Source: Lentisphaera profundi (lineage in GTDB: Bacteria > Verrucomicrobiota > Lentisphaeria > Lentisphaerales > Lentisphaeraceae). From it: a stretch of 64,000 bases of DNA. The translations under genes were made by a program, and so were the position numbers. The notes under the pieces were generated by a model. The model was not told the origin of the DNA and searched no databases. It saw only the letters and a list, made by a program, of their open reading frames with translations. This document shows, in pieces, positions 55,363-57,956 of the stretch; the stretch's first letter is position 1, and every line of letters starts with the position of its first letter. The stretch lies in NCBI RefSeq assembly GCF_028728065.1, contig NZ_CP117812.1, positions 2,046,001 through 2,110,000 on the forward strand, given 5' to 3'.

Positions 55363-57375
55363 GTGAAAAAAATTATTCTACTAATGATCTGTTTAAATTG
55401 TAATCTTGCCTGGTCTCAAGACAAAGTGAACACTTGGCATGATTACTTAGCCATTAACAAAAATGACCGCAGCTTAGACTTTTATTCAAAACAACTCTCT
55501 GAACTCAAACTTTATACACAAAAGCTAAGCCCCTCCAAAATAACACAATGCCTACAGATCATTGAAAAACAACTTAGTGCTTTAGTCGCCTCAAAGAAAT
55601 TTCTCATAGAAAACAAAAATTTGCTTTTCGAAAAAGAGATAAAAGTAGGCTCCAAAAAAATCCGCGTAACAGATTTTTCCGATAAGTCGATCTCCTACAT
55701 GATGAATGACAAGGAGATAAAGGCCGATAACAATAAAATGCCGACGAGTTTTTTCTATGCTCTACTAAAATCTGCAAATTATTCAAACTCTATTGAAGCT
55801 AGTTTTTCTTACTCACTATTCACCGGAGATCTTAAAAGCTCCCAACAATTATTGAAACTCTTACAGAAGAAAAAGCTACTCACACCAGAGCAGACATTAG
55901 CCTATAGATACATAACACAATCTCAATTAATAGTAGATACTTCTCTTCGTTTCACTGTTCTGAAACAAACTCTAATCGAGGAAGATCTCACGCAGAGCCA
56001 AACTGAATTAAAAAATATATCAGCGCTCATTAGTCAATCGTCTACACTCAATGACCTATTCCTCACATCGCTGTCTGATTTCCAAAAAAGAGTTCTCCAA
56101 TTAAAAGATAAACTCCGAGAACAAGAACTGAAACTATTTTTAGATTTCCCTCTTAATGCGGGGCAATCACGCAAAATCCCATGCTTAAATTACCCCACTT
56201 TTTCCTATGACGTCTACCTTCCCCCTCAATACAAACACGATGGTTCAGTTTTACTCCCTATCATGTACACTTTTAGCCCAGGTGGCGGCGGCATGGTTAA
56301 TCACTTCAAACAGCTAGCTGCCGCACAAGGTATTATTCTCATTGGCAATTTAGAAAGCCGCAATAATCAAAGCTATGATAAGATTAAAAATTCATGGTAT
56401 GCTATCAAGCGAGACATCAATAAACGTATTCACTTCGAACCCGGACGTCAATTCTCTTCGGGCATGTCGGGTGGTGGCGCTGCAACCTACGTTTTTGCAC
56501 GACGCTTCTATAGTCAAATATCTGGCAGTATCCCCATGGGCGCGTGGCTAGGCTACAGCTCCAAACCAGAGGATCACTGGCAAATGACGGGGTACAAAGT
56601 CGCAAGAACCTGTGGCGATAAAGACAAAGGAGCCAAGTCTTATGTAGAGCGCGATAAAAATATCCTCAAGGAACACGGAGTCGAAGTTAGCGATACATTT
56701 TTTCCCGGTGGTCACACCCCTGCTCCCCGAGATGTACAAACAACTAGTTTTACATGGCTCATGGAAAAGCGTGCCGCCGCAACAGATAAAGAAATTGGCG
56801 AAAAATTTTACTCTCAGAGCAACAACTTAATCCAATCGAAACAAGCAGGAAAACTACTCCTCCAATGTTTAAAAATACTTCGTGAGGAGCCCTACACATG
56901 GAAAAGTTTTAAAGCTAGAATGATCTATGAGAATATCCTAGCAAGCCATGGCAAAAATATAATGAAATTTAAAACTGATCTTAGTAAACTAAAAATGGAT
57001 AACATCTCCATAAAAACTTTTGGTGAAGATCTTCATGGTTCCGCTCTTGTAGGGGATAAAAACACATTTTGGGCCTGCCTGAAAATCATGGAGACTCACG
57101 ATTCCCTTGACACTTATTTCCGTACAGCAGTTTGGCACCTCTGCCAATCTAAACACCCCCAAATCATTGACTTGAAAACCGCGCGAACACTTATCGAATC
57201 ACGCCGCACACTCACTTTAGATGAAAGCATTGTCAAAGCTGGGCTCGCCCTAGCTGAATCCGACAAAAAAGCCTACCTGAAGGAAATCAAAGAAATTGAA
57301 CAAAGAATTGCCGACAAAGAGAAATACTGGAAAACTCGTTACCAAGAACTTCTTCAATTAGCGAAAAAGCTCTAA
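55363..57375 (+). CDS. Exported alpha/beta-hydrolase (esterase-like) with long N-terminal region
   Basis: The 670-residue protein starts at GTG 55363 with gggag before it (the overlapping ATG at 55361 runs into TGA). A signal peptide ends near residue 18 (CNLAWSQ). Residues 25-260 are helical and unrecognised. An esterase domain (about 260-475) resembles feruloyl-esterase/LpqC-type hydrolases: YDVYLPPQY, PIMYTFSPGGGG, the nucleophile S369 in SGMSGGGAA and a His in PGGHTPAP near 450. Residues 480-670 are helical again. Action on a plant or algal ester is possible but not shown. Confidence 0.82.
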   Translation: MKKIILLMICLNCNLAWSQDKVNTWHDYLAINKNDRSLDFYSKQLSELKLYTQKLSPSKITQCLQIIEKQLSALVASKKFLIENKNLLFEKEIKVGSKKIRVTDFSDKSISYMMNDKEIKADNNKMPTSFFYALLKSANYSNSIEASFSYSLFTGDLKSSQQLLKLLQKKKLLTPEQTLAYRYITQSQLIVDTSLRFTVLKQTLIEEDLTQSQTELKNISALISQSSTLNDLFLTSLSDFQKRVLQLKDKLREQELKLFLDFPLNAGQSRKIPCLNYPTFSYDVYLPPQYKHDGSVLLPIMYTFSPGGGGMVNHFKQLAAAQGIILIGNLESRNNQSYDKIKNSWYAIKRDINKRIHFEPGRQFSSGMSGGGAATYVFARRFYSQISGSIPMGAWLGYSSKPEDHWQMTGYKVARTCGDKDKGAKSYVERDKNILKEHGVEVSDTFFPGGHTPAPRDVQTTSFTWLMEKRAAATDKEIGEKFYSQSNNLIQSKQAGKLLLQCLKILREEPYTWKSFKARMIYENILASHGKNIMKFKTDLSKLKMDNISIKTFGEDLHGSALVGDKNTFWACLKIMETHDSLDTYFRTAVWHLCQSKHPQIIDLKTARTLIESRRTLTLDESIVKAGLALAESDKKAYLKEIKEIEQRIADKEKYWKTRYQELLQLAKKL

Positions 57376-57386
57376 GTATTATTCTT

Positions 57387-57521
57387 CACGATTACCCATA
57401 AAGCGGTGCAAAGCCCCTAATTGCCTGGTCAAGGAAAGGCATTTCCTTGCTGGGGGAGCTCGAGGGGGACAGCGTCCCTATCGTATGCGAAGCATCATTC
57501 CCTCTATTCTGGGTAATCGTG
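57387..57521. mobile_element. MITE-like element, 135 bp, with 12-bp inverted ends
   Basis: The element begins CACGATTACCCA and ends TGGGTAATCGTG, perfect inverted repeats of 12 bases. TTATTCTT stands directly outside both ends (57379-57386 and 57522-57529), an 8-bp target duplication. Inside are small hairpins (aaggaaa-ggca-tttcctt and atgc-gaa-gcat) and no coding frame of note. This is the pattern of a non-autonomous element moved by a transposase encoded elsewhere. It lies between convergent genes and breaks none. Confidence 0.85.
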
Positions 57522-57563
57522 TTATTCTTTACCAAGCGCTCCTGCTACACGACCCCATTTTTC

Positions 57564-57947
57564 TTAAGAACGTTTTGCGATCACCGCAATTTCTATTAAT
57601 GAGTTCATTGGCAAAGACGCAACTCCCACAGCAAAACGTGCGGGCTTCGGCTCTTCCGAAAAATACTGTACATAGATTTCGTTCACTTTTCCGAAATTAT
57701 CCATATTGGTCAGAAACACTTCCGCCCTCACCACATCGCTATAAGTTAGATTAGCAGCGTCTAAAATGGCTCCGATATTTTTCATCACTTGCTCAGTTTG
57801 AGTTTCGATTCCTCCTGAAACAATACTACCCAGCTTAGGATCTAAGGGAATTTGTCCCGAAACAAAAATCAAATCACCTAAATCAATTGCCTGAGAATAA
57901 GGGCCTATGGCTCCCGGTGCTTGATCTGTTTGAATTTTCTTTTTCAT
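57564..57947 (-). CDS. ridA: RidA-family enamine/imine deaminase
   Basis: RidA hydrolyses reactive 2-aminoacrylate and similar imines. The protein has the whole signature: APGAIGPYSQAI, LIFVSGQIPLDP, the Arg in RAEVFLTNMDNF and the C-terminal PARFAVGVASLPMNSLIEIAVIAKR. Residue count is 127 if started at the second ATG (57947), six bases after aagga; the first ATG (57953) is in contact with that site. It follows surE by a few bases and is coupled to it. Confidence 0.95.
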   Translation of the reverse strand: MKKKIQTDQAPGAIGPYSQAIDLGDLIFVSGQIPLDPKLGSIVSGGIETQTEQVMKNIGAILDAANLTYSDVVRAEVFLTNMDNFGKVNEIYVQYFSEEPKPARFAVGVASLPMNSLIEIAVIAKRS

Positions 57948-57956
57948 CTTCATTCC

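Follow-up and report, generated by a model that had tools for sequence, protein, structure and literature searches.

Two convergent genes of Lentisphaera profundi are separated, from stop codon to stop codon, by 188 bases, 151 of which are occupied by a short element with inverted ends and by the direct repeats that border it. The locus is part of a 64-kb stretch of DNA, the whole of which is called the window here. Which kind of element is this, how did it come to be there, and what might its inner hairpins do? Considering all the data below, the element is best explained, as a whole and with high confidence, as one copy of a MITE family found throughout the genus Lentisphaera.

The element and its neighbours

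An earlier note had described inverted ends of 12 bp around 135 bases together with an exact 8-bp duplication, and this description holds at 57379-57529. The exact inverted pair, CACGATTACCCA and its inverse, bounds exactly 135 bp, and TTATTCTT directly abuts both ends of the element (Table 1). By our estimate, an exact 12-bp inverted pair with an adjacent 8-bp repeat, counted for spans of up to 500 bp, would be expected by chance less than 1e-4 times per 64 kb. The small size of the element, its non-coding nature and its TIRs, which match at 12 of 12 positions in the window copy, are those of a bacterial MITE.

Table 1. Features of the MITE locus, in window positions.
Feature	Position	Strand	Remark
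Upstream neighbour gene of the element	55363-57375	+	
Left target duplication copy, TTATTCTT, 8 bp	57379-57386		8-bp flanks match at other copies too
MITE, 135 bp	57387-57521		No ORF of at least 50 aa wholly inside
Left TIR, CACGATTACCCA	57387-57398	+	Identical to the L. marina IS1595 element end
Hairpin H0, consensus GGGGC-AAA-GCCCC	57405-57417	+	Window copy GGTGCAAAGCCCC, one pair broken
Hairpin H1, CAAGGAAA-GGCA-TTTCCTTG	57430-57449	+	Covariation of arm-apex bases between copies
Hairpin H2, CGAGGGGGAC-AGC-GTCCCTATCG	57461-57483	+	Family consensus GTCCCTCTCG
Hairpin H3, ATGC-GAA-GCAT	57485-57495	+	Less well conserved across the family
Right TIR, + strand reads TGGGTAATCGTG	57510-57521	-	
Right target duplication copy, TTATTCTT	57522-57529		
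Convergent downstream gene, ridA	57564-57953	-	

The name ridA, previously given to the convergent gene, is borne out by PF01042 and TIGR00004. The label of esterase proposed for the product of the upstream neighbour finds no support in any Pfam or NCBIfam family. This protein has 670 aa, with a GMSGG motif visible by eye; a relative 52% identical was found in one sister species (G002) and none in the other, L. marina (G001). In both sister species, the locus of the window copy is rearranged, with a different gene order. The gene that follows ridA is there of the LysR type; the upstream neighbour is absent in L. marina and, in G002, is some 8 kb away from ridA.

Copies in the genus and a probable IS1595-family partner

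In the genome to which the window belongs (5.46 Mb, two contigs), BLAST returned 49 pieces of the element. With a covariance model trained on 35 full-length copies and a threshold of E ≤ 0.01, about 100 matches were obtained in this genome, 33 in L. marina and 63 in G002; three other genomes of the same taxonomic family had none. The element was also absent from the 146 other genomes of a sample of 149 from the class, which included the three Lentisphaera. No match was obtained in viral contigs by pattern search or in plasmids and phages by blastn, and no earlier description of repeats in Lentisphaera was found in the literature searched.

Among 77 of the own-genome matches that were inspected, both ends are recognisable, with no more than four mismatches, in 41, and neither end in 14. 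Target duplications were evaluated with 40 both-end copies, one of the 41 being removed because of a misassigned left end. The 8-bp flanks agree with at most one mismatch in 25 of these 40 copies, against a mean of 1.05 and a maximum of 7 when right flanks are shuffled among copies (20000 shuffles); an exact match is found in 11 copies, against a shuffled mean of 0.32. The target duplications are thereby specific to each copy, as in a MITE. Their A+T content is 91%, compared with 59% across the window.

Two of the checks put forward in the earlier note concerned further copies with different 8-bp flanks, of which dozens occur in the genome, and an empty site, which was found for other copies of the family. 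Copy L026 (C2:2277463-2277597) is missing from both sister species, where the alignment is continuous through both flanks. Copy L004 splits a repeat, the neighbouring paralogue of which (95% identity over 166 bp) is uninterrupted and carries ATAATTTT only once. Both of these copies are insertions. Dispersed copies and empty sites, as known for MITEs, are thus both present, the latter at copies other than that of the window. For another copy, L028, inheritance in common with L. marina was considered and rejected, the site in that species being occupied by a different hairpin repeat in the opposite orientation. The repeat at this orthologous site (L132, L. marina C2, near 1184100) perhaps reflects repeated insertion at one site.

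An IS with the same ends was looked for, as had also been suggested. A genome scan for the end sequence revealed CACGATTAACCA in five pairs, spaced by about 1.04 kb, with one transposase gene inside each pair; the whole IS, with ends CACGATTAACCAGTTA, measures 1039 bp and occurs in five copies. Its transposase is of the IS1595 family (PF12762, 1.2e-29; PF12760, 2.5e-13; NF033547, 7.5e-54). IS1595 was indeed among the families with 8-bp duplications that had been listed beforehand (IS66, IS1595, ISL3, IS256 and ISAs1). The IS copies are flanked by exact, AT-rich 8-bp duplications (AATCATTA, AATTCTTT, TAAAAATT, AATACTTT and TTTTATTT), and in one of them the open frame covers 200 aa instead of 324. 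A second, diverged IS1595-like transposase is encoded in the same genome (C2:2468929); its ends were looked for and not found.

The ends of the window copy match those of the IS in its own genome at 11 of 12 positions (C for A), and CACGATTAACCA is the right end of several MITE copies. The match is complete with a relative of the IS in L. marina: its end, CACGATTACCCAGTTA, agrees at 12 of 12 positions with the left end of the MITE and at 13 of 13 with the right one. Beyond these terminal 12-13 bp, no similarity was detected between the interior of the MITE and the IS1595 element. Ends that match, together with 8-bp duplications around both the MITE copies and the IS, correspond to what is expected of a non-autonomous element of the IS1595 family. 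Judging from the matching ends and the length of the duplications, the MITE very probably owes its mobility to an IS1595 transposase acting in trans, a partnership in which the match of the ends spans just 12-13 bp. In this mechanism, the transposase of the resident 1039-bp IS would bind the shared CACGATTAMCCA ends and move the MITE in trans; it would act on the ends alone, with an interior unrelated to the IS. The view of a transposed non-autonomous element, proposed from the window copy, is thus supported by the other copies, by an IS with the same ends and by empty sites elsewhere.

Inner hairpins and the core without transposon ends

The interior of the MITE is a chain of short hairpins. 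Among the 35 full-length copies, the pairs 46-65, 52-59 and 53-58 of H1 switch Watson-Crick form in 11, 16 and 8 copies, respectively, with a single mismatched cell for the three pairs together. Shuffling yields 14.1 two-sided changes for H1 and H2, in which 40 were counted; their covariation score of 0.228 compares with at most 0.079 in slid versions. A wider census gave several fully paired types of H1 arms (ATT/AAT, AAA/TTT, AAT/ATT, ACT/AGT and ACC/GGT). A tree built without the columns concerned requires at least 12 switches of arm type, two of which separate sister copies with good support (L001/L005 and L006/L013); its overall resolution is low, with good support for 5 of its 32 inner branches. 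Pairing reaches 97% in H1 and 95% in H2, as compared with 77% in the TIRs. Thus, the pairing of H1 and H2 is maintained, and selection on an RNA, a requirement of transposition, the correction of palindromes and the swapping of hairpins between copies are all possible reasons. In a distinct form of the element (L031, L035, L040, L069, L068 and others), bounded by TIRs and about 170-180 bp long, the apex of H1 is replaced by a CTTGCCAGACAGGCGGATAAAAAGCATTTGCCCATACGGC-like segment, which is also seen elsewhere in the genome.

TIRs do not always accompany the core made of H1 and H2, which is also found between genes on its own, singly or repeated in tandem. For instance, one intergenic array of L. 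marina (L064:750-1096) contains three units of 111 bp, and another, from the genome of the window copy (L036:1345-1846; C2, near 1132200), has a period of about 103 bp. Many TIR-less copies retain good hairpins, bearing in mind that hairpins raise the score in the model used to detect these copies, which introduces a bias in this respect. The pairing of H0 (0.84) is largely lost in TIR-less copies (0.50), and H0 seems to belong to the arms of the MITE. Because the core occurs alone and in tandem without TIRs, the most likely origin of the MITE is the acquisition of flanking IS1595 ends by a hairpin repeat that already existed, the reverse order being possible.

As for the genomic setting, nearly all of the 35 full-length copies sit between ORFs. 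With genes called by a simple ORF rule only, 22 copies lie between co-directional genes, 7 between convergent and 3 between divergent ones. In the co-directional pairs neither orientation of the element is preferred (11 versus 11), and by our count 17 of these 22 copies are closer to the 3′ end of the upstream gene. Such a placement fits the loss of insertions that hit promoters, and a function is not needed to account for it. The inner hairpins had been proposed to serve as a terminator for the two convergent genes. This role is unsupported: no intrinsic terminator, in the form of a G+C-rich hairpin followed by a T run, was detected on either strand inside 57379-57529, the sole terminator-like site found (57575-57589) is outside the element, and the family has no fixed orientation with respect to genes.

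It may be imagined, although it is unlikely, that the element is chiefly a structured RNA under selection, providing hairpins at mRNA 3′ ends or regulatory hairpins, and that the IS1595 ends are only its means of spread. The paired changes of H1, the excess of two-sided changes in H1 and H2, the several fully paired arms with their repeated changes on the tree, the better pairing of these hairpins than of the TIRs, their retention in many TIR-less copies and the proximity of most co-directional copies to a 3′ end would all agree with such a view. However, palindrome correction during replication or the exchange of whole hairpins also yields paired changes, the tree is weak, the TIR-less copies carry the detection bias mentioned above, and a 3′-side position is expected as well if insertions in promoters are lost. 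Moreover, an Rfam covariance-model search of the element was negative for E values up to 1, the window copy lacks any terminator-like signal, the orientation relative to genes is evenly divided and the range is limited to one genus. A more specific version, in which H1 and H2 would form a genus-specific RNA, selected for its fold, captured by IS1595 ends and acting on mRNA 3′ ends, is more doubtful still.

It is very improbable that the element is a REP-type repeat moved by RAYT/Y1 (tyrosine) transposases rather than by IS1595. The genome does have 17 Y1_Tnp matches, and the intergenic arrays of the core alone resemble REP/BIME arrays. However, the MITE copies carry 8-bp duplications, which Y1 transposases are not known to make; furthermore, inspection of ten Y1 loci did not reveal the core hairpins around them, and one of these loci carries a different palindromic repeat. 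Neither the linkage to a Y1 gene nor the insertion without duplications that would mark a member of this class is thus observed, and a RAYT/Y1 origin of the TIR-bounded form is largely refuted. As a separate observation, three copies of a palindrome, GCTGAAAGCAT ... CCCAATGGCGTAAGCCTTGGG, surround a Y1 transposase gene (L102, C1, near 772221, and L010 flanks), one MITE copy being inserted in a member; this palindrome is possibly the REP of a RAYT. Finally, the MITE might be what is left of the IS1595 element after internal deletion and decay, with an interior that has no separate history. This would reflect a common origin of bacterial MITEs and account for the shared ends, but there is very little chance that it applies here, given a match that stops at the terminal 12-13 bp, a dissimilar interior and a core that exists independently of the ends.

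Comparison with known elements

The interpretation as a MITE moved by an IS1595 element has precedents. Members of the IS1595 family usually make 8-bp duplications and have an N-terminal zinc domain (PMC8101967). Such duplications and the terminal 12-13 bp are common to these ISs and to the Lentisphaera MITE; the partner IS has the zinc-ribbon and DDE domains of the family, whereas the MITE lacks a transposase gene and its interior is unrelated. An ISHwa6-related MITE of Haloquadratum walsbyi is listed with 165 bp, seven copies, inverted repeats of 25 bp, direct repeats of 8 bp and an assignment to IS1595 (PMC3852290). As far as this table entry goes, the two elements are alike in size, ends and duplication, and the Haloquadratum one differs in being archaeal, in its fewer copies and in its longer inverted repeats.

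In Streptococcus pneumoniae, the non-coding RUP, of less than 200 bp, is believed to depend, for its movement in trans, on the transposase of an IS whose ends match its own (PMC2229807). Its partner is IS630-Spn1 with TA targets, in contrast to IS1595 and 8-bp duplications in Lentisphaera. Folded transcripts are usual for bacterial MITEs; Correia/NEMIS, ERIC and CIR are short intergenic repeats with transcripts that would form stable folds, and some of them alter mRNA processing or stability (PMC2229807). Most of these consist of one long stem, whereas the Lentisphaera MITE has several short hairpins. The IS1595-associated MITE is therefore a known kind of element, of which the hairpins with kept pairs and the free-standing core are the less ordinary features.

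A MITE family of high copy number is thus documented in Lentisphaerota, with a likely IS1595 partner, target duplications and empty sites. In addition, the paired changes and the existence of the core outside the transposon make the upkeep of MITE hairpins a testable matter, in which selection on RNA, the needs of transposition and palindrome correction can be set against one another.
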